A stretch of 64,000 bases of DNA from NCBI RefSeq assembly GCF_030385785.1, contig NZ_JAUEDK010000001.1, positions 1 through 64,000 on the forward strand, written 5' to 3'. Of this stretch, positions 6,682-22,534 are shown one piece after another (within the stretch, counting starts at the first letter, position 1; each line of letters starts with the position of its first letter). The notes below the pieces were generated by a model. That model saw only the letters and a list, made by a program, of their open reading frames with translations, was not told the DNA's origin and did no database searches. A program made the translations under genes and the position numbers. Source of the stretch: Crenobacter oryzisoli. GTDB lineage: Bacteria > Pseudomonadota > Gammaproteobacteria > Burkholderiales > Chromobacteriaceae.

Positions 6682-8298
6682 TTACTGGGCGATCGGGTAG
6701 GGCGTCCAGTTCGCGCCCTGCTGGCGCATCATGTAGCGCGCGCCGTCCTGCATCATCACCGTGCCCGCATTCTCGGCCACGTACGGCGTGGTCGGCAGCT
6801 GGTCCAGATAATGTTGAGGTGCGTAGTCGGCGCCGAACGGGCTCTTGTTCATCATTCGCGACAGGATGGTCGACACCGCCATATAGCTGACCGGCTGGTC
6901 GATCCTTACCGGATTCGCCTTGGCGGCGGTGCCGATCACCTTGATCGCCGCCGGCACAGTGGTGATCGCCGGGGTCGGGATCTCGCGCAGACCGGAGAAC
7001 TGTAGCTTGTCGCCACGCAGCGCTGCGCCGTGTTCCGGCACCATGATCAGGATGACCTTGCGGTGGCTCTGCTCCAGGCTGTCGATGAAGCGGTTCAGGC
7101 CGTTGAACAGGTTGTTGGCGCGCAGATGGTAACTATCCTGCGTGTTGAGGTTGCCGGCACCGACCACCCGGTTGCCGTCGTGCAGGCTGATGGTGTTGTA
7201 GTAGGCCGCCACGTGCTGGGCCGGGTCGTTCTTGCGCAGCTCCAGCCATCGGTTCAGCACCTCGTAGTCGTCGTACAGCGGCGAATCGTCGAAGGCATGC
7301 TGGCCGACCTTCAGGCCCTTCTGCGACATCAGCGGCTGGTTCAGGTGACCCTCGTTCTGCACCAGCTTCAGAAAGTCATCGAAGTGGCCGTCGTGGTTCA
7401 TCATCAGTTCGTTCTTGAAGCCGAGCTTGGCCAGGTTGTCGAACAGATAGCACTGCGACGAGGCGCTGTCATACAGCGCGGTATGGTTGGTCTGGCCGCA
7501 GGTGGCGCGTAGCACGCGGATGGCTGCCGGACCACTGTAGGCCGCCGCAGAGTTGAAATGGGTGAAGAGGAAGTCGAAGCGCGACAACAGCGGGTGGTTG
7601 TCGAGCTTGACGTCGCGCAGATCGTCCCAAGCCAGCGAACAGATATGGATCAGTAATATGTCGAAGCCGGGATCGGCCAGCGGTGGATTGAATGCGACCA
7701 TGCGCTGCTGTTCGTTCTTGTAGAAGGCTGCCAGCTTGTCGTCCAGCGACTGGGTGCCGCCCGCCGCCGTACTGCCGGTGCTACCCGTGGCGGCGACGGC
7801 GACGGCGACGGCGACGGCCGGGGCGGGGCGGTAGCTCGTCCACAGCTGCGAGCCGCAGACGCCGAGCAGCGCCATCATCACCAGCGTGCCGATACGCAGA
7901 TAGCGCGACAGCAGGGCATAGCCAACCGCCAGCACCACCAGGAGCAGCACGTCATCGGGTTTGGCGACCCGGCCGGCCAGTTCCAAGAGGTAGGTGAGGC
8001 TGAAGCCCTGGATCACCTTGAGCTGGCTCAGTGTCTGGGCAAACGAGGGAAGGAAAGAGTCATTGTAGAGCAACGCCGCGGCCGCGACCGTCGCCAGCGC
8101 GTTGCGCAGCCCGACCTTGAGCCGCCCTTCCACCGGCACCAGCAGCAGTAATGCAAAGGCGAGGTTTGGCAAGGGATGAAAGCCGAGCAGGCCCTGCCAG
8201 AACATCAACAGCTTGACGATGAAATACAGGCTCCAGGCGCCGAGCCCGGCGGTGCGGCTAGAGGCGAGAGGCGTATTGTGGGACGTGGTACTAGCCAT
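6682..8298 (-). CDS. bcsG: Cellulose phosphoethanolamine transferase BcsG
   Basis: Inner-membrane enzyme that transfers phosphoethanolamine from lipids to nascent cellulose in the periplasm. The 538-residue protein has about five N-terminal membrane segments (residues 15-165), a low-complexity Ala/Val linker, then an alkaline-phosphatase-like domain. Conserved sites match the E. coli enzyme: ICSLAW (zinc Cys), AAYSGPAAIRVLRATCGQ (Ser nucleophile), SLHDGN (His) and VPEHGA (Glu-His). The start is the ATG at 8298, whose ATGGCTAG overlaps the bcsF stop; a longer frame to 8331 is less likely. Its presence predicts pEtN-cellulose rather than plain cellulose. Confidence 0.95.
   Translation of the reverse strand: MASTTSHNTPLASSRTAGLGAWSLYFIVKLLMFWQGLLGFHPLPNLAFALLLLVPVEGRLKVGLRNALATVAAAALLYNDSFLPSFAQTLSQLKVIQGFSLTYLLELAGRVAKPDDVLLLVVLAVGYALLSRYLRIGTLVMMALLGVCGSQLWTSYRPAPAVAVAVAVAATGSTGSTAAGGTQSLDDKLAAFYKNEQQRMVAFNPPLADPGFDILLIHICSLAWDDLRDVKLDNHPLLSRFDFLFTHFNSAAAYSGPAAIRVLRATCGQTNHTALYDSASSQCYLFDNLAKLGFKNELMMNHDGHFDDFLKLVQNEGHLNQPLMSQKGLKVGQHAFDDSPLYDDYEVLNRWLELRKNDPAQHVAAYYNTISLHDGNRVVGAGNLNTQDSYHLRANNLFNGLNRFIDSLEQSHRKVILIMVPEHGAALRGDKLQFSGLREIPTPAITTVPAAIKVIGTAAKANPVRIDQPVSYMAVSTILSRMMNKSPFGADYAPQHYLDQLPTTPYVAENAGTVMMQDGARYMMRQQGANWTPYPIAQ
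7790..7818. repeat. Hexanucleotide microsatellite (GGCGAC)n inside bcsG
   Basis: About four and a half tandem copies of GGCGAC encode the alternating Val-Ala stretch (AVAVAVAVAA) in the linker between the membrane and catalytic domains of BcsG. A six-base unit changes linker length without breaking the frame. Confidence 0.8.
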
Positions 8299-8515
8299 GG
8301 TGGTGATCGTGATGAGGCGACGCTGTCTCATTGCGCGTCGCCAGTTGGTTCATGTAGGGATGGGGTTCGAAGTGGCGCAAGCCATTGCGCCGACGCTGTC
8401 GCCAGACCCTCAGCCAGGGTAGCAGGCGTGCGTGCAATTGGTAGCCGGCGAATAGGGCGACCAGCGCGGTGAGCAGCAACAGGAACTGCTGTGCGCTCAA
8501 TTCGGGATTGAACAT
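8291..8515 (-). CDS. bcsF: Cellulose biosynthesis protein BcsF
   Basis: Small 74-residue bitopic membrane protein: one hydrophobic segment (about residues 9-27) followed by a very basic cytoplasmic tail (RVWRQRRRNGLRHF) and a His-rich end. BcsF recruits BcsE, and through it c-di-GMP sensing, to the cellulose synthase membrane complex (family knowledge). It lies between bcsE, with 2 bases between, and bcsG, overlapping by 8 bases, exactly as in enterobacteria. Sequence identity to E. coli BcsF is low, so the call rests on position, size and topology. Confidence 0.8.
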   Translation of the reverse strand: MFNPELSAQQFLLLLTALVALFAGYQLHARLLPWLRVWRQRRRNGLRHFEPHPYMNQLATRNETASPHHDHHHG

Positions 8516-8517
8516 GA

Positions 8518-10206
8518 TCAGGCCTCTTGCGGCATGGGAGTGCGACGGACCAGCGGAGCCGGAATCGGCGCGGCTGTTCGCGGCTTGTCCTGGGGGGCGG
8601 CACGCTGCACCGTTGTCGCTGCCTGCTGCTTGGCGATCGCCTCGCTAAGGTCGGGTAGGCTGCTGAAGCCCTCCTGTTCCCGAAACTGTTCTAGCGCCAG
8701 GCGGATGCTGTCCAGATCGGGGCTGCGCACCTCGTCGGCGAACAGCTCGCTGACCGGCAAGCGGAACAAGTGACACAGCGCGGTGTCAACGTCGGCGTCG
8801 CGGCACGCGAACAGAAACAGGTAGACATGCTCGCGGTCGGCGGTGCACAGGTCGCCGGCACGCTTGAAACGGCACAGCCGCAACATGTCGAGCGGACTGG
8901 CGCCAGGCGCGGGGTGCAGGATGAGTAGGACGTTCTGGATGCCGATAAGCCGGCTGCGCTCGACCGTGGCGCTGACCGCTTTGGCGAAACGGGCCGGCGG
9001 CAGATAGCCGCGGTCGGACTCGGGACGACTGGCGGCCTCGAGTGTGTCGGTTTCACCACCGAGCCGGCCCTGGTAGACCGCTTGCTGTAGCGAACCGACC
9101 AGGCTGAGTACGCTGGTCAGGCTCAACTCGGCCGGCAGTATCGCATTGGCGCCGAGGTTGAGCAGCAGCTGCTCATCGCTGTGGCGCAAGCGGCTGTTGC
9201 CGATTTCGCGCACCAGGATTTTCAGCTGTTTGCCGCAGCGCTGGCGCAAACGGCTGATGGTCTCTGGCAAGTCGGCACTGTCGGCGGCATCGAACAGCAC
9301 GGTGGCCGCCACCGCGGTTTCAGCGGCCTCAAGCAGCTCGGCGCGGGTATCGAACAGCTGCCAGTTCTGAGAGGGGGCGGCGCTCTCGGGCAGGCTGGAG
9401 CGAGTGGCGAGCACGCGCTGCCGGTCGCTGGCGGCGCGCGGCGAGGCGTTCACGCCATCGGGCGTGGTGTCTACCTGCAACCGTCCGTCGTTGTCTAACG
9501 TCAGTGGGAACGGCGTCGGTATCGTCAACGCCCCGTCGCCCTGCCAGTGCTCGACCTGCCACGTGTAATGGCCCTGCCACGATTGTTGGCCGAAGGCGAG
9601 GCCGGCGCATTCGATCCCGAGCTGGCTGAGCAGTGCCAGTTGCGGCAGGTCAAGCCGTTGAGCGGAGAATACGAGTAAAAGGGTGTGGCCGGTTTCGGCG
9701 GCCCAGCGCCGACACTGGGCCAGGGAACGTTGGGCTGCCGAGCCGTGTTCGAGGGGCAGATGGGTCTCGGCCTCGTCGAGCACCAGCAGCATCGGTCCGC
9801 CAACCGGTTGTAGCCGGGCGCGGTAATGGGCCAGTTCGACCAGTTGCCGTTCCAGCGGCTCGGCCCGGCCGCGTTTTCGGGGCAGTGGCGTGAGCAGTGC
9901 CGCCGACCGGTCGCGTAGCCGTTCGTCGAGACAAGCGGTGTCCGGCAGCAGTGCAGGGTCGGCACTGCTGACACACAGCAAGGGGCGGTCGCTACCCTTC
10001 GGCAGGTTGCCGAACAGAAGGGCGCGGGCCAGCGGCGGCGTTTCGCTCGCCACCAGATAGACGGCCCCATGAGTCAGGCTGCCTGCGGCAGGGTCGAGTC
10101 CGGAGATACCGAGGGTTGGTCGTGTCAGCATATCGGTGGCGCCGTGCCGGTAGCACTGCGAGGGGATCCTTCCTGTCTCAATGGGTGGCAGATCGGCTTT
10201 GCCCAT
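8518..10206 (-). CDS. bcsE: Cellulose biosynthesis c-di-GMP receptor BcsE
   Basis: Cytosolic c-di-GMP-binding regulator of cellulose secretion, 562 residues. Regions recognisable against E. coli BcsE are NWQLFDTRAELLEAAETAVA (about 281-300), KILVRE...DEQLLLNLGANAILP (329-358) and the GIL domain with the RxGD ligand motif R449-A-G-D452 in CRFKRAGDLC. The N-terminal third is a degenerate P-loop-like domain. An internal Met at codon 26 (10131) is an alternative start that better matches the E. coli N terminus; neither start has a clear ribosome site. First gene of the leftward bcsEFG unit. Confidence 0.92.
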   Translation of the reverse strand: MGKADLPPIETGRIPSQCYRHGATDMLTRPTLGISGLDPAAGSLTHGAVYLVASETPPLARALLFGNLPKGSDRPLLCVSSADPALLPDTACLDERLRDRSAALLTPLPRKRGRAEPLERQLVELAHYRARLQPVGGPMLLVLDEAETHLPLEHGSAAQRSLAQCRRWAAETGHTLLLVFSAQRLDLPQLALLSQLGIECAGLAFGQQSWQGHYTWQVEHWQGDGALTIPTPFPLTLDNDGRLQVDTTPDGVNASPRAASDRQRVLATRSSLPESAAPSQNWQLFDTRAELLEAAETAVAATVLFDAADSADLPETISRLRQRCGKQLKILVREIGNSRLRHSDEQLLLNLGANAILPAELSLTSVLSLVGSLQQAVYQGRLGGETDTLEAASRPESDRGYLPPARFAKAVSATVERSRLIGIQNVLLILHPAPGASPLDMLRLCRFKRAGDLCTADREHVYLFLFACRDADVDTALCHLFRLPVSELFADEVRSPDLDSIRLALEQFREQEGFSSLPDLSEAIAKQQAATTVQRAAPQDKPRTAAPIPAPLVRRTPMPQEA

Positions 10207-10416: not shown

Positions 10417-10626
10417 ATGGCCGGTTGCCGAGATGCAACGGGGCCGATTGAAACCATGCAAGAAGACATCGACCGTTTGTACCGCCATCTCAAACAGCCC
10501 GAGTTCCACTTCCAGGAATTGCGTTTCAGCGAGGAGGCCGAGAATGCCTGCCTGCGCTGGTCCTTGCTGCAATCGATTCGAGCCGCGGTAGCACCTGAGC
10601 GGCAAGAGTTAGAGCCGGCCCACTGA
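10417..10626 (+). CDS. bcsR: BcsR-like small cellulose regulator
   Basis: 69 residues, or 56 if translation starts at the second in-frame ATG (10456), where similarity to BcsR begins (MQEDIDRLYRHLKQPEFHFQ). The end RWSLLQSI corresponds to the RWPLLAEF end of E. coli BcsR. In enterobacteria BcsR pairs with BcsQ, stabilises it and contributes to c-di-GMP and nucleotide binding of the synthase complex. It stands immediately before bcsQ (19-base gap). No good ribosome site is seen for either start. Confidence 0.75.
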   Translation: MAGCRDATGPIETMQEDIDRLYRHLKQPEFHFQELRFSEEAENACLRWSLLQSIRAAVAPERQELEPAH

Positions 10627-10645
10627 TGCCTGCGGGAGAGCACGC

Positions 10646-11398
10646 TTGTCGATTCTCTCGGTAACCGGGGCGAAGGGGGGCGTCGGCTGCACGGCCGTGG
10701 TGGCTGGCTTGGCCGGCGCGTGGTCCCGTCAGAAAAAGGCGGTGCTGGCGTTCGATCTGTGCCGGCAGAATCTGTTGCGTCTGCACTTCGGCCTGGACTG
10801 GCATGAGCGCGACGGCTGGCATGCCCGGCTCGTGGCAGGGCGTGACTGGAGTGGTGCGGCATGGCGCACACCCGACGGGCTCAGCTTCGTTCCGCACGGT
10901 AGCCTCCGCGACGGCGCAGCGGCCGAGGTACTGAACAATCCCCATTGGTTGGCCGCTGAACTGGCCAGCCTCGCACTGCCCTCCGATTGCCGGCTGCTGC
11001 TCGACACGCCGCAGGCCGGTCGCGAGCGCGCCCAAGCGTTGGCTGCCGCTACCCACGTGCTGGTGGTTTTGCCGCCGGAGCCCTTGTCCTGCGGTCTGAT
11101 CGAGCCGCTCGAGGCCGAGCTTTCGGCCCATGGCGTGGCGCAGGAGAAGCTGCTGTATGTGCTGAACCGTTTCGATCCAACCCGACAGCTCGATCGCGAT
11201 GTCGAGTTGCTGCTGCGCGAGATGCTGGCCACACGACTGGCACCGCTGCCGGTGCATCGTGACGAGGCGGTGCGCGAAGCGCTGGCGATGCAGCAGCAGC
11301 TCGCCGACTATGCGGCGCACAGCCAGGCTTGCGACGACTTCAACCAGCTGGCGACCTGGTTGTCCATTCGTCTCAACGGTGGGGCGAAGGGACGATGA
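10646..11398 (+). CDS. bcsQ: BcsQ, ParA/MinD-like ATPase of the cellulose complex
   Basis: 250-residue SIMIBI-class P-loop protein that with BcsR forms a cytoplasmic complex on BcsA and helps localise cellulose secretion. The deviant Walker A reads GAKGGVGCT: the signature lysine before the Thr is replaced by Cys, comparable to the GVRGGVGTT of E. coli BcsQ. FDLCRQNLLRLHFGLDW and LLLDTPQA mark the A' and B regions. The start is TTG at 10646 behind GGGAGAG. The stop overlaps the bcsA ATG (ATGA). Confidence 0.92.
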   Translation: MSILSVTGAKGGVGCTAVVAGLAGAWSRQKKAVLAFDLCRQNLLRLHFGLDWHERDGWHARLVAGRDWSGAAWRTPDGLSFVPHGSLRDGAAAEVLNNPHWLAAELASLALPSDCRLLLDTPQAGRERAQALAAATHVLVVLPPEPLSCGLIEPLEAELSAHGVAQEKLLYVLNRFDPTRQLDRDVELLLREMLATRLAPLPVHRDEAVREALAMQQQLADYAAHSQACDDFNQLATWLSIRLNGGAKGR

Positions 11399-13995
11399 GC
11401 AGTCGTTGGACTCGCTGGCTGCTGGCGAGCGGCGCCGTACGTCATCCTGACGATGCCGCTTCGACCAGCACCGTGCTGCTCAGCCTGTTTCTGGTGGCGC
11501 CTCCCGAAGGGTGGCACGCATGGGGGAGACAGGCCCGGCGCTTCTTTCCGCATGTGGACTTCGACCGCCTGAGGCTAAGCGATGCGCTGCGCATCGTATT
11601 GCAATGCTTGTGGCTGCTGCTGGTGCGCAGGCCGGGCGAGGCTCGGCATGGCCTGGACCTGCGGCAAGTGCTGCCGCGAGAGCGGCGCCGCTGGAGCGAG
11701 CGCCGTCATCTACAGGGCGCATTACGGCTGTACTGGCTGCGCTTCAAGGCGTGGGCGGTGCGGCGTTTCCCGGCCCTGCTCGATCGTTCCCGGCTACGCG
11801 GTTCGGTCGAACATGCCGCCCTGCACCCGTTCTGGGATCACTGGCTGGCGAGTTATGCATGCTACGCGTTGGCGGTGCTGCTGGCTGTGGTATGCATCAC
11901 CACCCCGTTCGACATCGCTTCGCAGGCGCTGTTCGTGGTGCTGCTGCTGGCGATGGCGCTGTGGGTGCGCCGCGTGCCGGGGCCGGTGCCGACATTGATT
12001 CTGGTGGTGTTCTCGATCACGGTGTCGACCCGCTACATCTGGTGGCGAGCCACTTCGACGATCAACGACGACACGATGGCGAACCTGATCGCCGGCGTGG
12101 TACTGCTGTGCGCCGAACTCTACGCCTGGGTGGTGCTGCTACTGGGCTTCTTCCAGACTTCCTGGATGCTGCGTCGCAAGGTGGTCGCGCTGCCGGCCGA
12201 TCCCGGATTGTGGCCGAGCGTCGACGTTTTCATTCCGACCTACAACGAGCCGCTGCGTGTGCTCAAGCCGACCATCTACGCCGCCCAGGCGCTGGATTGG
12301 CCCAAGGACAAGCTCAACGTCTACATCCTCGACGATGGCAGCCGCGAGGAGGTGCGTCGCTTCGCAGAGGAGATCGGCGTCGGCTACCTCATCCGGGAAC
12401 AGCACAACCATGCGAAGGCGGGCAACATCAACCATGCGTTGACGCTGACCGATGGCGAGTTCGTGGCGATCTTCGACTGCGACCACATCCCGACGCGCTC
12501 CTTCCTGCAGGTGACGATGGGGGGCTTCCTGGGCGATGAGAAGCTGGCGCTGGTGCAGACGCCACACCATTTCTTCTCGCCCGACCCGTTCGAGCGCAAC
12601 CTGAATTCCTTCCGCAAGGTGCCCAACGAGAACGAGCTGTTCTACGGCCGGGTGCAGGATGGCAACGACCTGTGGAACGCGACATTCTTCTGCGGCAGCT
12701 GCGCAGTGCTGCGGCGCGGCCCGCTCGAGGAGATCGGCGGCATTGCGGTTGAAACGGTCACCGAAGATGCTCATACCTCGCTGAAGCTGCACCGGCGCGG
12801 CTACCGCTCGGCCTATCTGAACCTGGTGCAGGCGGCGGGTCTCGCCACCGAGAGCCTGTCGGCGCACATCGGCCAGCGCATCCGTTGGGCACGCGGCATG
12901 ACGCAGATCTTCCGCACCGACAACCCGCTGTTCGGCAAGGGGCTGTCGCTGGCGCAGCGTATTTGCTACAGCAATGCGATGCTGCACTTCCTGTACGGCA
13001 TCCCGCGTACGGTGTTCCTGACCGCTCCGCTGGCCTTCCTGCTGTTGCATGCCTACACCATCTACGCGCCGGCGATGGCGATCGTGCTATACGTGCTGCC
13101 GCACATGATATTTGCCACGATCACCAACTCGCGGATGCACGGACAGTTCCGCCGTTCCTACTGGGGTGAGATTTACGAGACGGTGCTGGCCTGGTACATC
13201 ACGCTGCCGACCACCATCGCACTGCTGTTTCCCAAGCTCGGCAAATTCAACGTCACCGCCAAGGGGGGGCTGGTCGAGGAGAGCTATTTCGACTGGAACA
13301 TCACCAAGCCCTATCTGGTGCTGCTGTCGCTGAACCTGCTCGGCCTGCTCGCCGGCGGCTACCGGCTGGTGACCGGGCCTAACGACGAGTTGGGCACCGT
13401 GTTGGTGAACATGGCGTGGACCGGCTACAACCTGTTCCTGCTCGGTGCGGCACTGGCGGTGGCCAAGGAGTCGCGACAAGTGCGAGTCACGCACCGCGTA
13501 CACGCCCGCCTGCCGCTGACGCTGCACCTGCCGGACGGCAAGTGCCTGCCATGCCATTCCAGCGACTATTCCGAGGGCGGGATGGCGATCGTGATGCCGC
13601 ACGCGGTGAAACTGGCACCGGACACCCCGCTGCATGTGTCGCTGCGGCGCAGCGGCCGCAGCTTCGCCTTCCCCTGCCTGACCGTGTTTACCAAGGGCAA
13701 CCGACTGAGCCTGCGTTTTTCGGCGTTGAGCCGACAGCAGGAGATGGACCTGGTGCAGTGCACCTTCGGTCGCGCCGATGCTTGGCTCAGGGACGAGGCG
13801 CGTGCCCATGAGGGCACCCCAATGCACGGCCTTCGCGACATTTTCAGACTCGGCAGGGACGGCTTCCACCTGCTGATAGTTCAAGCTCTCGATTATCTGG
13901 ATCCGCTGCCTTCGCGGTTGAAGGCACTGGCCCGCCGTCTTGCCACGCTGCTGCCGCGTCAACCGGCCCCCCATACGATACAAGGAAAAACATGA
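11395..13995 (+). CDS. bcsA: Cellulose synthase catalytic subunit (UDP-forming)
   Basis: Inner-membrane GT2 processive synthase that polymerises glucose from UDP-glucose and extrudes the chain; 866 residues. Transmembrane segments flank the GT domain, where D313 (DDGS), the DCD at 361-363, TED ending D458 and QRIRW (494-498) are all present. A C-terminal PilZ domain binds c-di-GMP through R697xxxR701 and D724-YSEGG. The start at 11395 overlaps the bcsQ stop; a further-upstream in-frame Met at 11329 lies inside bcsQ and is unlikely. The 3' end overlaps bcsB by four bases. Confidence 0.98.
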   Translation: MSSRWTRWLLASGAVRHPDDAASTSTVLLSLFLVAPPEGWHAWGRQARRFFPHVDFDRLRLSDALRIVLQCLWLLLVRRPGEARHGLDLRQVLPRERRRWSERRHLQGALRLYWLRFKAWAVRRFPALLDRSRLRGSVEHAALHPFWDHWLASYACYALAVLLAVVCITTPFDIASQALFVVLLLAMALWVRRVPGPVPTLILVVFSITVSTRYIWWRATSTINDDTMANLIAGVVLLCAELYAWVVLLLGFFQTSWMLRRKVVALPADPGLWPSVDVFIPTYNEPLRVLKPTIYAAQALDWPKDKLNVYILDDGSREEVRRFAEEIGVGYLIREQHNHAKAGNINHALTLTDGEFVAIFDCDHIPTRSFLQVTMGGFLGDEKLALVQTPHHFFSPDPFERNLNSFRKVPNENELFYGRVQDGNDLWNATFFCGSCAVLRRGPLEEIGGIAVETVTEDAHTSLKLHRRGYRSAYLNLVQAAGLATESLSAHIGQRIRWARGMTQIFRTDNPLFGKGLSLAQRICYSNAMLHFLYGIPRTVFLTAPLAFLLLHAYTIYAPAMAIVLYVLPHMIFATITNSRMHGQFRRSYWGEIYETVLAWYITLPTTIALLFPKLGKFNVTAKGGLVEESYFDWNITKPYLVLLSLNLLGLLAGGYRLVTGPNDELGTVLVNMAWTGYNLFLLGAALAVAKESRQVRVTHRVHARLPLTLHLPDGKCLPCHSSDYSEGGMAIVMPHAVKLAPDTPLHVSLRRSGRSFAFPCLTVFTKGNRLSLRFSALSRQQEMDLVQCTFGRADAWLRDEARAHEGTPMHGLRDIFRLGRDGFHLLIVQALDYLDPLPSRLKALARRLATLLPRQPAPHTIQGKT

Positions 13996-16268
13996 CCCGC
14001 CACGTGCTCATCTCCCTGCTGGCACTGACGTTGGCCGGGCCGATCGCCGTCGCTGCGCCACCCATCGCCTCGGCCGGTCCGGCCGAGCGCACGCCGCTTG
14101 CCGCGAGCGCCACGGTCACCCCGCTGATTACCTCCCGCACGCAGACCTTCCGCCAGCTTGGCGCGCAAGCGCCGCTCAACCTGCATGGCGGCAGCGGCGT
14201 TGCCGGGGTCAGCTTCGGCAGCCGCAGCGACGAAGTGATCACGCAGGCGAAGCTCAAGCTGCGTTACACCTATTCGCCGTCGATGCTGGCGGACCTGTCG
14301 CATATCAAGGTGATGCTCAACGACGAGATCGTCGCGGTGGTGCCGCTGCCCAAGGACAAGGGCAGTGAGACCCAGCAGCTCGAATTGCCGCTCGACTCGC
14401 GGCTGTTGACCGACTTCAATCGGCTGCAGTTTCGCCTGATTGGCCATTACACCAACCAGTGCGAAGACCCGGCGAACAGCAGCCTGTGGGCGCAGATCAG
14501 CAATACCAGCGAGTTGACGCTGACGGCGCAGTCGCTGTCGCTCGTCAACGATCTGGCGCATTTCCCCGAACCGTTCTTCGACCGGCGAGACTTCACGCGC
14601 CTGACGCTGCCCTTTGTGTTCGCCGGCCATCCCTCGATCGGCACGCTGCAGGCGGCCGGGGTGCTGTCGTCCTGGTTCGGCGCTGCCGCCGGCTGGCGTG
14701 GCGCTCGCTTCCCGACCCTGCTCGACAGTCTGCCGGCCAGTCAGCACGCGGTCGTGTTCGCCACCAACGACCAGCGCCCGGGCTTCCTCGCCAAATACCC
14801 GTCGGTGAAGGCGCCGACGGTGGCGATCATCACTAATCCGAACCAGCCGGCGCGCAAGCTGCTGATGGTGCTCGGCCGCGACGACAGTGACCTGAAGCAG
14901 GCCGCCGACGCATTGGTGCTCGGCCAGGCGGCGATGACCGGCCCGCAGGTGACAGTGGCCGGCATCAAGCTCGACGCGCCGCGCCAGGCTTACGACGCGC
15001 CGAACTGGGTGCGTATGGATAGGGCGACCAAGTTCGGCGAGCTGGTTGGCAGCCAGCAGGACCTGGAGGTGTCCGGCCAGCAACCCGACCAGATCCGCGT
15101 CAATCTGCGCGTGCCGGCCGACCTGTTCACCTGGCGCAGCCGCGGTATCCCGATTGCGCTGAAGTTCCGTTACACCGCGCCGGCCAAGCTCGACGGCTCG
15201 CGCATGGCGGTGGCGATCAACGACAACTTCGTGCAGAGCTTCAACCTGCGCCCGGCGGGGCAGGGCGGCGAGCAGTCGTCGCTACGCCTGCCGCTGCTGG
15301 ATGACGGGCTGTTCGCATCCGGCAACGAGGTGCTGCTGCCGGCCTTCCGCGTCGGCAGCCGCAACCAGCTGCAGTTCCAGTATTCGTTCGTGCTGCCGAA
15401 GGAGGGCAACTGCAGCAGCACCGGCAATGACAACTTCCGTGCGGCGATCGACCCGGACTCGCAGATCGACTTCAGCGGCTACCCGCACTTTGCCACGCTG
15501 CCCAATCTGGGCTTCTTCGCCAACTCGGGCTACCCGTTCACCAAGTACGCGGACCTGTCAGGCAGTGCACTGGTCGTGCCGGCCAAGCCGTCGTCCTCGG
15601 ATATCGAGGCGATGCTGACGCTCTTGGCGCACATGGGCGAGTCGACCGGCTACCCGGCGCTGCGCTACCGGCTGGTGACGCCGGCGCAGATCGACACGGT
15701 GAAGGACGACGACCTGCTGGTGATCGGCGCGGCGGCGCAGATGCCGCTATTAAAGCAGTGGCGCGACCGCTTGCCGACTTCGGTGGACGGCAGCGACCGT
15801 CGAGTCGCCGACAGCGCCTATTCGGCCAACTCGTCGTTCGGCTGGCTCAATGCGGCCAATGCCCAGCCGAACACGGCGATCCTGGGCCAGACGCAAATCC
15901 AGGCTCAGGGCAGGCTGGCGGCGCTGCTCGGCTTCGAGTCGCCGTACACTCCTGGCCGCAGCGTAGTGGTGGTGACCGGCTCCGAGCCGGGCGCGCTCGG
16001 CCAGGCGCTCGATGCGCTGGACGACGAAGGCAAGGTCGCCGCGATGCACGGCAGCGCGGTGCTGATCCGCGCCGACAACGTCGTGAGCCAGCTGGTCGGA
16101 CCGACCTACCAGGTCGGCAAGCTGCCGCTGTGGACCTGGGTGTGGTTCTTCTTGTCCGAGCGTCCGATCTTGCTGGCGGTCATGGCGGTACTGGCCGTCT
16201 GCACCTTCGCCTTCGCGATCCTGCGACTACTGAAGGCGGTGACCGCACGCCGTCTGGAGAACAAGTAA
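13992..16268 (+). CDS. bcsB: Cellulose synthase regulatory/periplasmic subunit BcsB
   Basis: 758 residues with an N-terminal signal peptide (cleavage near AVAAPP, about residue 22), a long periplasmic region of two carbohydrate-binding-like and two flavodoxin-like repeats, and one C-terminal membrane helix (about 722-745) followed by a basic tail. BcsB docks on BcsA, completes its activity and passes the glucan to the outer-membrane channel. ATGA overlap with bcsA and one-base overlap with bcsZ indicate one translational unit. Confidence 0.96.
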   Translation: MTRHVLISLLALTLAGPIAVAAPPIASAGPAERTPLAASATVTPLITSRTQTFRQLGAQAPLNLHGGSGVAGVSFGSRSDEVITQAKLKLRYTYSPSMLADLSHIKVMLNDEIVAVVPLPKDKGSETQQLELPLDSRLLTDFNRLQFRLIGHYTNQCEDPANSSLWAQISNTSELTLTAQSLSLVNDLAHFPEPFFDRRDFTRLTLPFVFAGHPSIGTLQAAGVLSSWFGAAAGWRGARFPTLLDSLPASQHAVVFATNDQRPGFLAKYPSVKAPTVAIITNPNQPARKLLMVLGRDDSDLKQAADALVLGQAAMTGPQVTVAGIKLDAPRQAYDAPNWVRMDRATKFGELVGSQQDLEVSGQQPDQIRVNLRVPADLFTWRSRGIPIALKFRYTAPAKLDGSRMAVAINDNFVQSFNLRPAGQGGEQSSLRLPLLDDGLFASGNEVLLPAFRVGSRNQLQFQYSFVLPKEGNCSSTGNDNFRAAIDPDSQIDFSGYPHFATLPNLGFFANSGYPFTKYADLSGSALVVPAKPSSSDIEAMLTLLAHMGESTGYPALRYRLVTPAQIDTVKDDDLLVIGAAAQMPLLKQWRDRLPTSVDGSDRRVADSAYSANSSFGWLNAANAQPNTAILGQTQIQAQGRLAALLGFESPYTPGRSVVVVTGSEPGALGQALDALDDEGKVAAMHGSAVLIRADNVVSQLVGPTYQVGKLPLWTWVWFFLSERPILLAVMAVLAVCTFAFAILRLLKAVTARRLENK

Positions 16269-17419
16269 TGCGCAGACCAATCAAGAGTTGGCTGGCTGCC
16301 GCGCTGCTGTGCCTGGCCGGCAGCGCACAGGCGGCGCCCTGTGGCGACTGGCCGGACTGGACGGTGTTCAAGCAGCGCTTCCTGTCCGATGGCGGCCGGG
16401 TGATAGACCGCAGCATGGCAAACATGCAGACGACCTCGGAGGGGCAGTCGTATGCGCTGTTCTTCGCGCTGGTGGCCAACGACCGCGCCACGTTCGATAA
16501 GGTGCTGGCCTGGACCCGTGACAACCTGGCGGGGGGGGACCTGACCGCGCGGCTGCCGGCCTGGCAGTGGGGCAAGCGCGACGACGGCAGCTGGGATGTG
16601 ATCGATGCCAACAGTGCGTCCGATGCCGACTTGTGGATTGCCTACAGTCTGATCGAGGCCGGCCGCCTGTGGCAGGAACCTCGTTACACCGCGATGGGCA
16701 AGCTGATCGGGCAGCGCATGCTGCGCGAGGAGGCTGCCGACTTGCCTGGCCTCGGCCTGACGCTGCTGCCGGGGGCCAAGGGGTTCCAGCCCGAGCCGAC
16801 GCTGTGGCGGCTGAACCCGAGCTATGTGCCGCTGCAACTGGTCGAACGGATGGCGCGGGCCTTGCCCGACTCGGGCTGGCGCAAGCTGTTGGCCAGTTCG
16901 GAGCAACTGATCCTGAAGAGTGCGCCGAAGGGCTATGCGCCTGACTGGGTCGGCTATCGGGCCGGCAAGGGCTTCGTGCCGGATGCCAAGACGAAGGCGG
17001 TGGGCAGCTTCGATGCTATCCGCGTCTACACCTGGGCCGGCATGCTGTCCCCCGAGCTGCCGGGAAGAATGCGTCTGCTCAACTGGCTATCGCCGATGGG
17101 GACACTTGTCGCCAAGCGTGGCACGCCGCCGACGGAGATCGACACGGTCAGCGGGCAGGCCGGCGAGGCCGGGCCGGTCGGCTTCTCGGTGGCAATGCTG
17201 CCGTTCCTGATCGCATCGGGGCAGAAAAATGCCGCCGACGAGCAACTGACCCGCCTGGCGGCCAAGCCCTTGGCCGAACGGCCGCAGAATTACTATGAGC
17301 ATGTACTGTCGCTGTTCGGCCTTGGCTGGCAGCAGCAACGCTATGCCTTCAACCGGTACGGTGAAGTCCGGCCGCACTGGGAGACCGCATGTCCCGCATC
17401 ATCCCGCTCTTCGTCCTGA
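16268..17419 (+). CDS. bcsZ: Periplasmic endo-1,4-beta-glucanase (GH8) BcsZ
   Basis: 383-residue secreted glycoside hydrolase family 8 cellulase that trims or detangles nascent cellulose. The signal peptide ends near GSAQAAP (about residue 22). The catalytic acid Glu58 lies in SEGQSYALFF, and Asp119 in NSASDADLWIAYSL is the second conserved acidic site; FDAIRVYTWAGM carries the later Asp. The start ATG shares its first base with the bcsB stop. The C-terminal 31 bases overlap bcsC. Confidence 0.95.
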   Translation: MRRPIKSWLAAALLCLAGSAQAAPCGDWPDWTVFKQRFLSDGGRVIDRSMANMQTTSEGQSYALFFALVANDRATFDKVLAWTRDNLAGGDLTARLPAWQWGKRDDGSWDVIDANSASDADLWIAYSLIEAGRLWQEPRYTAMGKLIGQRMLREEAADLPGLGLTLLPGAKGFQPEPTLWRLNPSYVPLQLVERMARALPDSGWRKLLASSEQLILKSAPKGYAPDWVGYRAGKGFVPDAKTKAVGSFDAIRVYTWAGMLSPELPGRMRLLNWLSPMGTLVAKRGTPPTEIDTVSGQAGEAGPVGFSVAMLPFLIASGQKNAADEQLTRLAAKPLAERPQNYYEHVLSLFGLGWQQQRYAFNRYGEVRPHWETACPASSRSSS

Positions 17420-20400
17420 GCGCAGCGACCGCCGCCGTGCCGCCCGTTTTTGCCGCGCCGGCGCAGGTCGACCCGGTGCAGACGCTGCTTAATCAGGCGC
17501 GCATGTGGCAGGGGCTCAACCGCGACGACCTGGCCCAGCAGGCGCTCGACAAGCTGCAGCGCATCGCGCCGAACAACCCGGAGGGCTTGACCCTACTGGC
17601 GCAGCAGCAGCTGAAAAACCGGCAGGACAAAGCCGCCGCAGCGACGCTGGCAACACTGAAGCGGCTCTATCCCGGCTATGAAGGCATCGCCCGTATCGAG
17701 CAGCAGCAACGTCTGGCCGGCGCAGACCTGGACAAGCTGCTGGCCGCCCGCGCGCTGGCGCGCAGCGGCAAGGTCGACGCCGCGATTGCGGCTTTAGACG
17801 AGCTCTACAAGGGGCGTCCACCCGACGGCGAGCCAGCGGTCGAATACTGGCAGTTGGTGGCGCGCAGCCCCAACAACGGCTGGGCGCGTGCCAGAGCGGG
17901 CCTGACGGCGTTGGTGGCGGCCAATCCGGACAACCGCCGTTATCGGCTGACGCTGGCCGACCTGTACCTGAACAAGCCGCCCGCGCCGCCGCAGGTGATG
18001 GCCGAACTGAAGGCGCTCAGCGTCCATCAGGACAGTCGCAGCCAAGCGCTCGGCATCTGGCGCCGCGCGCTGTTGCAGGAGGACCTCGGTTCGGTGCAGC
18101 GCGACGCATTCATCGCCTATCTGCGTGAGGTGCCGGACGACGAGGCGGTGAAGGAGAAGCTCGCCGGCCTCGACGAGGCCGCTGCCAAGCAGCGTGCGCT
18201 GCTGGCCGACCCGGCGTACCAAGCCCGCTTGGCTGCGGGCAAGTCGCTCGACCAGAACCGCCTGGCCGATGCCGAGCGCCAGCTGCAGCTGGCGCGACAG
18301 CGCTTCGGCAACGAGGCCGACGTGCTCGGCAATCTCGGCCGCTTGCGCGAGAAGCAGGGCAGGTACGACGAGGCGATCGACTACTACCGCCAGGCCGAGG
18401 CAAAGGACACGGATAAGACTGGCTGGCAGCGTCACATCACCGATGCACGCTTTGCACAGCGCTTGGCCGAGGCCGAGCAGGCGGAAGCTTCCGGTCAGCT
18501 CGGCGCAGCCGAGGCGGCGCTTGCCGAGGCCGGCCGGCTCAAGCCCAAGTCGGCCGACCTGCGCGTGGCGCAGGGGCAGCTGTGGCTCAGGCAGGGCAAG
18601 CCGGACGCGGCGCGCGATGCCTACCAGGCGGCGCTGACGCTGGAGCCGGACAACGGCGCGGCGCTGTCCGGCCTGATCGACGTCTATGTCACTGCCGGCG
18701 ATCTGGGCGGTGCCAGCCGCTATCTGGACACGCTGGCCCCCGCGCGGCGTAAGGTGCTAGGCCGAGCCTACCCGGCCGCGGTGGCCAAGGTCGAGCGCGA
18801 GCGGGCCGACCGGTTGCTGGCGGCCGGGCGTAACGACGAGGCAATCGCCGCGTTGCAACGTGCGGTGGCGGCGACACCACAGGACCCGTGGAACCGCTTC
18901 GCGCTTGCCAACGCCTATGCGGCAGCCGGCCAGGCTGCGCGTGGCGAGCAGTTGCTGCGCCAGCTGGCCGATGCGCCGGCGCCGGACAGCGAAGTGTTGT
19001 ACGCCTATGCGCTGTTCCGCTCGCGCGCCGAGGACGACCTGGTCGCGCTGCAAGCCTTGCAGCGCATCCCGCCGGCGCAGCGCAGCGCCAGCATGCTGCA
19101 GCTGCAGCGCCGTTTGTGGCTGCGCGAGACCTTGCGTCTGGCCGATGCGGACATGGCTGCCGGCAGGCCGGATCGTGCCGAGCGGCGCCTGGCGCTGGCC
19201 GAGGGGCAGTTGGCGGGCGATCCGGAACGCCTTGCCGAGCTCGCCAAGGGCTGGCTGACGCTCGGCCAGCCCGAGCGTGGCCTGACGCTGATGCGGCGCG
19301 TCTATACCGAGCGGCCGACGCCGGCGGTGGCGCTGCTGTATGCAGACCTGCTGCTGGATGCCGAGCGCAGCGACGAGGCGCGTACTCTACTCGACAAGCT
19401 GCCTAGCGGCACGCTCGACAAAGGGCAGCAAGACAGCCTGCGCGCAGCGCGTTCGACCCTGGCGGTACGACTGGCCGATCGTGCCCGGGCCGACGGGCAT
19501 AACGGTCAGGCACGCGCATTGTTGACGACGGCGCTGGCGGCCGACCCGACCAGTTCGAGCCTGTTGCGCAACCTCGCGTCGCTCGACCTGACAGAGGGGC
19601 ATGTTGCGGAATCGCGCCAACGCCTTGAGGCGGTGTTGCAGCGCGACCCGAACGACGACGAGGCCCGGCTGCTGATGATCGACGCCGATCGCCTGTCGGG
19701 GCAGCGCGCCGCGGCGCTGGAAGGGACCGATCGTTTGCTGGCTGAGCCGCCCAAGCGTAGTGTCGATTTCCGGTTGCGCGTCATCGATCGGCTGATGGCG
19801 ATGGGCGAGCAGGCGCGTGCCGATCAGGCCGTGGACAAGTTGGTCGCCGAAGGCGAACTGACGCCGCGCCTATGGGGCTATACCGCACGACAAGCGCGTC
19901 GGGCCGACCAGCCCGATCCGGCCCTGTTGCGCTACCAGGCCGGCTTCGCGCCGGCGGGGCTGCGCCCGCACCTGACCGCGCTGATGGCGTCGCCGGACCC
20001 TGACCCCGCCCCGGTGTTGCAGGCGCCGCCACCAAGTACGGCATTGTCGCGGCTGATGCTCCCCGGGCAGGCCGCAGTCGCCGCAGAGGTGCCGGCGCTG
20101 CCCGGGGAGCTGGCGGGCGTCGCGCCATCGCAGCTGAGAAACCAGCCGCTGCTGCCCGTCGCGGCCGAGCCGGCCGGCAACGCCGATCTGCACGCAGAGT
20201 ACGCGGAGCTGATCGACAAGCGTACCGGCGACGTGCAGGCCGGGCTCGACGTGACGGCGCGCCATACCGGCACGGTCGGCCAGTCGCGGATGCTGTCGGT
20301 GCAGACGCCGCTGCTGGTGAATGTGCCGGGACCGCACGAGGGCAAGTTTTTCGTGCGCAGCGACCCGATTACGATGAGCGCAGGTTCGCTCGACCCGAAC

Positions 20401-21348
20401 GACAGTTACAACCGCGACCGCTTCGGTTCGATCTATCAGAAACCTGAAGCGGATCGGGCTGGCTACGGCCAACAAGCCGGCCGGCAGAGCGCCAGCGGCG
20501 TCGCGGTCGGCGTAGGCTACGAGAACGACGACTGGCGACTCGACATCGGTACCACGCCGATCGGTTTCCCCGTGCAGGACGTGGTCGGCGGGGTAAAGCA
20601 TTACGGAAAGATGGGTGAGCTCAACTACAACGTCGACGTGTCGCGCCGTCCGCTGACCAGCTCGGTGCTGACGTACGCCGGCACCAAGGACCCGGTCACC
20701 AAGCAGACCTGGGGCGGGGTGCGCGCGACCGGTGCCAGTGTCGGCATCGGTTACGATCAAGGTGGCGATTACGGGGTATGGTCGAACTTCGGCTACCACA
20801 CGCTGACCGGCGAAAACGTGCTCGACAACCGCCGTCTCACCGCGATGGGCGGGGTGTACTGGCGGGCGCAGCGCGAGGATACCCGGCGGATCACGCTGGG
20901 GCTCAACTCGATCAACTTCTGGTACAAGGAGAACCTCAGCCAGTTCACCTTCGGGCAGGGCGGCTATTACAGCCCACAGCGCTACAATTCGCTGTCGCTG
21001 CCGGTTAGCTACGCGGCCCGCAACGAGCGCTTGAGCTATCTGTTGCGCGCATCGGTCTCGGTGTCAAATTCGCGCGAGAAGGATGAGTTGTATTTTCCGT
21101 TGGAAGCGGCAGGAGCCAATAATCCTAGTTTCACCGCCAGTGAGGGGTGGGGGAGTGGCGCGTCGCTCAGCGGTGCGTTCGAGTACCAGCTGTCACCGCT
21201 GTGGGTGCTCGGCGGCAGCTTCGATCTTGAGTATTCGCAGTACTACCAGCCGAGCCGCGCCAGTCTGTACCTGCGCTACCTGTTCGCGCCATCGGGCAAA
21301 CCGCTGCCGTTCCCGCCCGAACCGCTGCAGCCGTATTCGAGTTTCTGA
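17389..21348 (+). CDS. bcsC: Cellulose export protein BcsC (TPR scaffold and outer-membrane porin)
   Basis: 1319 residues. A signal peptide (cleavage about PVFAAP, residue 24) is followed by some 900 residues of tetratricopeptide repeats (for example YDEAIDYYRQAEAKD and PDAARDAYQAALTLEPDN), a short Pro-rich linker near residue 880, then a C-terminal beta-barrel domain from about residue 960 ending with an aromatic C terminus (PYSSF). The periplasmic TPR solenoid meets BcsB/BcsZ and peptidoglycan, and the barrel passes cellulose through the outer membrane. The start lies within bcsZ. Confidence 0.96.
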   Translation: MSRIIPLFVLSAATAAVPPVFAAPAQVDPVQTLLNQARMWQGLNRDDLAQQALDKLQRIAPNNPEGLTLLAQQQLKNRQDKAAAATLATLKRLYPGYEGIARIEQQQRLAGADLDKLLAARALARSGKVDAAIAALDELYKGRPPDGEPAVEYWQLVARSPNNGWARARAGLTALVAANPDNRRYRLTLADLYLNKPPAPPQVMAELKALSVHQDSRSQALGIWRRALLQEDLGSVQRDAFIAYLREVPDDEAVKEKLAGLDEAAAKQRALLADPAYQARLAAGKSLDQNRLADAERQLQLARQRFGNEADVLGNLGRLREKQGRYDEAIDYYRQAEAKDTDKTGWQRHITDARFAQRLAEAEQAEASGQLGAAEAALAEAGRLKPKSADLRVAQGQLWLRQGKPDAARDAYQAALTLEPDNGAALSGLIDVYVTAGDLGGASRYLDTLAPARRKVLGRAYPAAVAKVERERADRLLAAGRNDEAIAALQRAVAATPQDPWNRFALANAYAAAGQAARGEQLLRQLADAPAPDSEVLYAYALFRSRAEDDLVALQALQRIPPAQRSASMLQLQRRLWLRETLRLADADMAAGRPDRAERRLALAEGQLAGDPERLAELAKGWLTLGQPERGLTLMRRVYTERPTPAVALLYADLLLDAERSDEARTLLDKLPSGTLDKGQQDSLRAARSTLAVRLADRARADGHNGQARALLTTALAADPTSSSLLRNLASLDLTEGHVAESRQRLEAVLQRDPNDDEARLLMIDADRLSGQRAAALEGTDRLLAEPPKRSVDFRLRVIDRLMAMGEQARADQAVDKLVAEGELTPRLWGYTARQARRADQPDPALLRYQAGFAPAGLRPHLTALMASPDPDPAPVLQAPPPSTALSRLMLPGQAAVAAEVPALPGELAGVAPSQLRNQPLLPVAAEPAGNADLHAEYAELIDKRTGDVQAGLDVTARHTGTVGQSRMLSVQTPLLVNVPGPHEGKFFVRSDPITMSAGSLDPNDSYNRDRFGSIYQKPEADRAGYGQQAGRQSASGVAVGVGYENDDWRLDIGTTPIGFPVQDVVGGVKHYGKMGELNYNVDVSRRPLTSSVLTYAGTKDPVTKQTWGGVRATGASVGIGYDQGGDYGVWSNFGYHTLTGENVLDNRRLTAMGGVYWRAQREDTRRITLGLNSINFWYKENLSQFTFGQGGYYSPQRYNSLSLPVSYAARNERLSYLLRASVSVSNSREKDELYFPLEAAGANNPSFTASEGWGSGASLSGAFEYQLSPLWVLGGSFDLEYSQYYQPSRASLYLRYLFAPSGKPLPFPPEPLQPYSSF

Positions 21349-21358
21349 GGAGCCGACG

Positions 21359-21769
21359 ATGCGATCATTCCCTTTCGTTCGGCCCACTTTGGTCCTGCTG
21401 CTCGCGCTGTCGGCGGCATCGCTCTATGCCGCCGACGCGTCGGCACCCGTTGCACTCGATCCGTTGGCAGTCGCCAGGGCGCAGTACTGGAAGAGTCCGT
21501 ACGACCCAGCGGCGATCAATGACCTGGCGCTGCGGCTGGTCGAGGCCGGCGACACGGAGTCGGCACGGGTGCTGCTGTATCGCGCCGTGCGGATTGCGCC
21601 GGATCGCCAGGACATCCGGGCAAACCTGCTCCGGCTGGAAGCGAGCTCTCGCCGGGTGGGGAGCGCCCCGGGCGGCGAGGCCAGCGCGCCGGCTATGGGG
21701 GCGGCCAAGCCGTCGGCGACCTCTCGTGTCGACGAGCTGCCACCACTCTGGCCCTTGCCGGCGCACTGA
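21359..21769 (+). CDS. Small secreted TPR-like protein at the end of the bcs operon
   Basis: 136 residues, ten bases after bcsC and with its own GAGGAG site before the ATG at 21359. A clear signal peptide (hydrophobic LVLLLALSAASLYAADA) is followed by one helix-turn-helix repeat resembling a TPR (NDLALRLVEAGDTESARVLL then AVRIAPDRQDIRANLL) and a low-complexity Pro/Ala tail. It is not a standard bcs gene that I recognise. As the last gene of the operon it may be a periplasmic partner of BcsC or BcsB. Function unknown. Confidence 0.75.
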   Translation: MRSFPFVRPTLVLLLALSAASLYAADASAPVALDPLAVARAQYWKSPYDPAAINDLALRLVEAGDTESARVLLYRAVRIAPDRQDIRANLLRLEASSRRVGSAPGGEASAPAMGAAKPSATSRVDELPPLWPLPAH

Positions 21770-21792
21770 AACCATCTCACGTCGTCAAGCGA

Positions 21793-21826
21793 ACGGTCCG
21801 CAATCCCTTCCGGAGGCGGGCCGTTT
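21793..21826 (+). terminator. Hairpin at the end of the bcs operon
   Basis: ACGG-t-CCGC pairs with GCGG-g-CCGT across a 13-base loop, followed by TTTCC. The T-run is short, so efficiency is uncertain, but the position 24 bases after the last gene fits a terminator. Confidence 0.5.
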
Positions 21827-21839
21827 CCGTTGCTTGGGG

Positions 21840-22534
21840 TCAGTGCGCTCCGACCTGCCGGTTGCGTCCGGCCAGTAGCGCGAACAGCAATGCCGCCATG
21901 CCGAACGTCTGGTAGACGACGAAAGCGCCGTGCCAGTTGCCGAGTAGGTCGTGGCTGAGTCCGACCAGGAAGGGGCCGGTCGAGGCCAGCAGGTAGCCGA
22001 CGCCCTGCGCCATCCCCGACAACTGCGACGCCAGCTGCGAGCTCGGCGCCCTGAGCACGATCAGCGTGAGCCCCATGCTGAACATGCCGCCCAGCCCCAA
22101 TCCCATCAGCGACGCCCACAGCCACAGAGAGCCGAGCGGCGCGTACAACGCACCGCTGAAGCCCGCCATCGACAGCGCCAGCATCGCCACGATCACCAGG
22201 CGCTGGTCGCGGCAGCGGCTGGCCAGCCACGGAGCGCCGAGCGAGCGGACCAGCTGGGTCAGCATCAGCAGCGACAGCGTCCAGCCGGCGGCGAGCGGGC
22301 TTAGGCCCCGGTCGACCATCATCGCCGGGAACCAACTGAACACGATGTACGCGTGGCTCGACCGCAGGCCCATGTAACCGATGACCTGCCAGGCGACCGA
22401 GTCGCGCCACAGTCCGCATGCCACTCCGTGGCGGCGTGCGCTCGCCTGAGCGTGACGTAGCTGCGGCCACCACAGCAACGCTGCCAGCAGCACTGGCAGT
22501 GCCCAGACGCCGAGGCCCACCTGCCAGCTGCCGG
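21840..22534 (-). pseudogene. MFS transporter (CynX/NimT type), N-terminal half deleted
   Basis: The frame encodes only the C-terminal half of a 12-helix major facilitator. After GSWQVGLGVWALPVLLAALL come six hydrophobic segments, including WFPAMMVDRGLSPLAAG and FSMGLTLIVLRAP, and it ends at 21840. About 226 residues are left where about 400 are expected. Just upstream the frame is closed by TGA and the sequence passes directly into a gntR fragment in another frame. This is best read as a deletion fusing the two leftward genes; no start or ribosome site serves the remnant. Confidence 0.8.

Follow-up and report, generated by a model that had tools for sequence, protein, structure and literature searches.

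The window, a 64,000-nt stretch of Crenobacter oryzisoli DNA, carries an E. coli-type (type II) bcs cluster plus one gene (Table 1). This gene is the last of a run that comprises a bcsR-like gene, bcsQ, bcsA, bcsB, bcsZ, and bcsC; bcsE and bcsG are divergent, and the small bcsF-like ORF between them found no match in a Pfam search. The top model for the bcsC product is NF008520, yet the score is 626 bits against a cut-off of 858. The initial annotation had placed an ORF right after bcsC, closing the bcs operon and outside the standard set of bcs genes, and this description stands: the ATG lies 10 nt past the bcsC stop codon (21346-21348), 136 intact codons lead to a TGA at 21767-21769, and in E. 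coli K-12 MG1655 it is pdeK, not this gene, that lies behind bcsC. Overlapping ORFs are present in other frames of the same region. The reading frame is under constraint, with differences from a congener (G001) at codon positions 1, 2, and 3 of 0.23, 0.22, and 0.45, dN of 0.25, dS of 0.87, and dN/dS of about 0.28 (NG86). The next gene-like ORF (21840-22520) runs in the opposite direction. Between the two lies a hairpin (z -2.4; 5 of 200 shuffles fold equally well), with a similar one behind the gene in a congener (z -2.2); the terminator scan of the window lists none behind the gene, so neither a terminator at the hairpin nor the end of the operon is established.

Table 1. The bcs cluster and the gene behind bcsC; positions are those of the window.
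Feature	Position	Strand	Basis
bcsG, divergent	6682-8331	-	Model match
bcsF-like ORF, 74 aa, between bcsE and bcsG	8291-8515	-	Place and size
bcsE, divergent	8518-10206	-	Model match
bcsR-like, bcsQ, bcsA, bcsB, bcsZ (exact starts not settled)	10456-17419	+	Model matches, ORFs
bcsC, outer-membrane channel with TPR solenoid	17389-21348	+	PF05420 above cut-off
GGAG, probable ribosome-binding site, abutting the bcsC stop	21349-21352	+	Read from the sequence
Gene for predicted exported TPR protein with P-x-[LP]-W tail, 136 aa	21359-21769	+	ORF and homologues
Probable signal peptide, residues 1-24	21359-21430	+	Hydrophobic stretch, cleavage site by eye, model helix 9-28
TPR core, residues 35-101	21461-21661	+	Pfam, AlphaFold2, PDB profile match, structure searches
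Tail motif P128-P-L-W131	21740-21751	+	26/27 relatives
Hairpin 3' of the gene, possible operon end	21786-21837	+	Folding versus shuffles

The protein begins with a probable signal peptide and the TPR core, from which a variable Pro/Ala linker leads to a conserved tail; the signal peptide, the single TPR-like repeat, and the Pro-rich tail had all been named in the initial annotation, and all three were recovered here, the conserved signature within the tail being an addition. The N-terminal hydrophobic stretch (best 10-residue Kyte-Doolittle mean 2.78) ends at a plausible cleavage site, LYA/A, picked by eye, and this signal-like N terminus predicts export. General TPR models of Pfam hit the window protein only at scores under their cut-offs (TPR_19, 21.0 bits vs. 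a cut-off of 25; TPR_14, 20.2 vs. 23.5), and each of the two matches 13 of the 27 family members described below at E ≤0.001; no model specific to it exists in Pfam or NCBIfam, whose matches are to generic TPR models or to those of other TPR proteins. Built from 24 relatives, a profile retrieves designed TPRs and the TPR of OGT from the PDB (best E 1.9e-15). AlphaFold2, run with 24 sequences, returns a mean pLDDT of 81 and helices at residues 35-45, 50-62, 66-79, and 84-101, with blocks of 91-98 in the core and 57-79 in the linker and tail; together with the PDB matches, these helices bear out “one TPR-like repeat,” to which flanking helices are to be added. A distant relative is modeled with the same order of helices, the first being longer, and a tail pLDDT of 49-60. 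Leading rows in Foldseek and VIA-align are TPR and TPR-like chains. By predicted fold and sequence consensus the protein is a member of the TPR superfamily, a fold so common that structure matches are uninformative on function.

How widespread is this gene, and what does it travel with? Within the family to which the window belongs, 15 of 61 genomes match the protein. A BcsC barrel is present in 16 of the 61; the gene is found in 15 of these 16 and in none of the 45 without a barrel. The exception, G043, has a divergent BcsC (E 8.7e-45, vs. 1e-104 or better elsewhere). All 15 copies have the end of BcsC directly upstream, and nine loci have species names, including Crenobacter luteus, Chromobacterium vaccinii, C. 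subtsugae, C. sphagni, C. piscinae, and C. alticapitis; a passage in PMC4646962, citing a 2008 C. violaceum paper, names Chromobacterium among cellulose producers. Even draws of genomes were made from the order (399 genomes, BcsC in 37, 2 of them already counted) and the class (369 genomes, 18 BcsC matches, 1 already counted). The gene is present in 9 of the 35 further order genomes with BcsC and in 3 of the 17 further class genomes, which brings the total to 27 of 68 genomes with a BcsC match; the 41 without a copy include G603 and G713, in which the BcsC matches fall below the cut-off and the downstream DNA was uninspected. Absence of homologues near bcs loci in other genomes had been named at the outset as the result that would refute the initial reading, and that result was not obtained; all 27 copies, from different species, sit directly 3' of bcsC, although for four of them (G370, G521, G730, and G471) this position is biased, as they were found by reading downstream of BcsC, while the other 23 were found genome-wide regardless of place (15 in the family, 8 by profile).

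The most distinctive part of the protein is its end. The tail signature, P128-x-x-W131 in the window protein and P-x-[LP]-W in the family, occurs in 26 of the 27 copies, the remaining one being cut by its contig end; in shuffled tails the motif is expected in 1.9 copies on average, with a maximum of 7. Over the 27 copies, A57, A69, L72, R75, A76, P81, and P128 are invariant, and N54, I86, N89, L90, and W131 are at least 90% conserved. Is this tail simply a property of small TPR proteins? Profile A1 matches 77 of the 399 genomes of the order draw, and loci were read for 28 matches beyond G000 and G025, the remaining weaker matches lying outside this set. Eight of the 28 adjoin BcsC, and seven of these eight carry the motif, the eighth having its tail cut by a contig end; the motif is found in none of the 20 loci away from BcsC, many of whose frames run off the DNA stretch that was read. 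Eleven profile matches reach model position 120 or beyond: 8 are genes behind bcsC, and the other 3 (in G188, G429, and G066) lack the motif. A generic TPR match to the same profile occurs in G004, a family genome without BcsC. Profile A2, applied to 38 gene-less BcsC genomes, finds matches in 24, none of them extending past model position 113 of 127 or to the tail columns, and 45 of the 49 matches lie in frames of at least 250 aa. A divergent copy away from bcsC could have been missed. Plasmid records gave no match to the protein.

Two ideas about the tail were tried and left. Docking on the protein's own TPR was set aside, given the moderate confidence of the modeled tail in the window protein (blocks 69 and 79) and the low values in the distant relative. 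A BcsC that bears the motif in cis is left as a curiosity: in one class family (f60; L115, L116, L118, L128, and L131) the BcsC C terminus is LW or VW, unlike many other BcsC proteins, which end in a PY-x-x-F/Y type sequence.

Other genes can also follow bcsC. At L114 and L131 (G608 and G809, one class family), a different small exported-looking protein of 92-95 aa is encoded behind bcsC, overlapping its end by 7 nt and giving no match to the family profile of the window gene. At L071 (G402) and L080 (G234), the ORF behind bcsC is hydrolase- or acyltransferase-like and is accompanied by an exported ORF that, by eye, resembles AlgF of alginate acetylation, which suggests that these loci may make acetylated cellulose.

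Mapped onto a BcsC tree of 66 rows, 25 of them gene-positive, the presence of the gene requires at least 5 changes, vs. 20.4 for shuffled labels, and well-supported branches force 3 of them; G096 and G471, in which the gene is present, and G513, G603, G713, and G806, in which it is unseen or uninspected, are outside the tree. The distribution is clustered, with likely losses such as those in G228 and G415, two gene-negative genomes inside gene-positive clades, behind whose bcsC no remnant of the gene was found. These apparent losses, together with the 41 genomes without a copy, indicate that the gene is not needed for export in general.

Does the gene keep company with any particular bcs module? 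BcsE, BcsG, BcsQ, and BcsZ were sought, with the window's proteins as queries, in 49 loci and the window. BcsE and BcsG are found in the window and in 12 of 14 further family loci, the flank in the other two (G001 and G036) ending before the place of the window's bcsE and bcsG. Elsewhere the sets vary: E, Q, A, B, and Z but no G in G305; Q, A, and B but no E, G, or Z in G293 and G264; A, B, and Z in G471; and only A, B, and C detected in G521. In G134, G279, and G442, BcsA is divergent, BcsG and BcsZ matches lie on the opposite strand, and BcsB is undetectable with the window's BcsB as a query; the BcsA of these gene-positive loci (L132, L133, and L168) has 33-34% identity, and their polymer may not be ordinary cellulose. 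Since none of E, G, Q, and Z is detected at every gene-positive locus, a tie to any one accessory module was rejected, although some loci are truncated, at a contig end or at the limit of the stretch read, and absence there is weak. BcsC is constant by the selection of loci, and BcsA turns up at every locus for which the DNA read was long enough; because BcsA is as constant as BcsC, neighborhood alone does not single out BcsC as the partner.

What, then, might a one-repeat TPR protein do behind a channel with a TPR solenoid of its own? The reading we favor, at about an even chance, is that it is exported and serves the BcsC channel alone, as an accessory subunit. This reading draws on the pairing with the BcsC barrel within the family and the shared place of all copies 3' of bcsC, on the tail motif and the dN/dS, and on the variation of BcsE, BcsG, BcsQ, and BcsZ at loci where BcsC is always there; the gene follows BcsC through different operon types. 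The make-up would fit an adaptor, a TPR module joined to a docking-type peptide by a flexible linker. The protein would be made beside BcsC and exported to the periplasm, and lipid anchoring may keep it on the periplasmic face of the outer membrane in a few species. Two of its parts, the TPR module and the P-x-[LP]-W tail, would then serve as binding elements: one would dock on BcsC, and the other would hold the polymer, BcsB, BcsZ, or a different segment of BcsC. Location, BcsC binding, and the two-element mechanism are what we infer from this arrangement. In its most specific form, which is tentative and more likely wrong than right, the proposal is that of a Bcs subunit not described before, in which a TPR and a peptide form a detachable adaptor that would clip onto BcsC via its P-x-[LP]-W tail and tune the periplasmic passage of cellulose, and that has been kept with BcsC in several proteobacterial families independently of E, G, Q, and Z.

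The main rival, itself unlikely, holds that the protein is an assembly factor that would assist BcsC in its targeting to, or its folding in, the outer membrane but would have no place in the functioning exporter. The PilQ secretin has such assembly helpers (pilotins) in the TPR lipoproteins PilW/PilF and Tgl, and a protein that in some species may be lipid-anchored could by analogy do the same for BcsC. Such a factor would be expected to pair strictly with a single outer-membrane channel in operons of otherwise varying content, as this gene does with BcsC, and lipobox-like sites occur in 5 of the 27 copies under a loose pattern, convincing by eye in L005 and L013; yet the other 22 lack one. 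At E ≤0.001 the PilW model matches 4 of the 27 and the Tgl model 1, but this may be general TPR likeness: the commonest model matched is PrsT (14 of 27), which makes the PilW and Tgl matches unspecific. Moreover, E. coli and other BcsC systems manage without the gene.

Less probable again is a direct role in handling the polymer, in which the tail Trp would stack on the glucan and guide or hold periplasmic cellulose. W131 is nearly invariant while the rest of the tail varies, and a passage in PMC11379886 describes E. coli BcsC Trp766, near the pore, in contact with a putative cello-oligosaccharide. However, a lone Trp flanked by Pro-rich sequence is more suggestive of a docking motif, and no carbohydrate-binding fold is among the Foldseek and VIA-align matches. 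A further idea starts from the same source, in which TPR#1 of E. coli BcsC binds a single BcsB subunit, the last of the six that form a semicircle (PMC11379886): a stand-alone mimic of TPR#1 might occupy the further BcsB subunits at the inner membrane. By eye, the two proteins have an A-R-x-x-W-like helix in common. Yet in hhalign TPR#1 comes fourth, behind three internal repeats of BcsC (a few rows of the BcsC alignment were trimmed at the wrong repeat), and BcsB is undetected in three gene-positive loci; the hhalign ranking disfavors the mimic, which is improbable and was dropped as the main idea. That an unrelated periplasmic TPR gene ended up behind bcsC by chance or drift is barely credible: TPR proteins are common, as the profile A1 matches attest, but such a gene would not be expected to occupy the same position in all 27 copies, to carry a tail motif that the 20 non-BcsC loci read all lack, and to be absent from the family genomes without BcsC.

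The list of bcs parts has largely been built on E. coli and Komagataeibacter. If the protein is indeed a subunit dedicated to BcsC, many other proteobacteria run their cellulose exporter with one extra part, and the short conserved tail would offer a direct handle on channel docking or regulation. The literature search found no description of a TPR gene behind bcsC; an earlier name in Romling and Galperin 2015 is possible.

How does such an accessory subunit compare with known systems? It resembles BcsC (NF008520, PF05420), always encoded by the next gene upstream in one operon, in its predicted export and in its TPR fold. However, BcsC has many TPRs and a β-barrel, whereas the window protein has a single TPR, a P-x-[LP]-W tail, and no barrel: at 136 aa, with no PF05420 barrel match and an all-helical model, it is not a BcsC, and NF008520 matches only 2 of the 27 members. 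PilW/PilF and Tgl are likewise small TPR proteins that are exported and linked to a single outer-membrane channel, a likeness in how they may work; unlike these pilotins, only a minority of the family has a lipobox-like site, the window protein has none, and the partner is a polysaccharide channel. BcsK is, as is predicted for the window protein, a periplasmic TPR protein of a cellulose operon; passages in PMC11470070, PMC9012009, and PMC6559018 describe it as often carried by type III bcs operons in place of BcsC. By this description the two are set apart: BcsK replaces BcsC, whereas the window gene lies directly behind an intact bcsC and its relatives, in all cases found, occur together with BcsC. 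PelC of the Pel exporter PelBC is likewise, as a passage in PMC12141448 describes it, a small accessory of a TPR-barrel polysaccharide exporter; likened to it by description, the window protein differs in that PelC is a ring of twelve lipoproteins.
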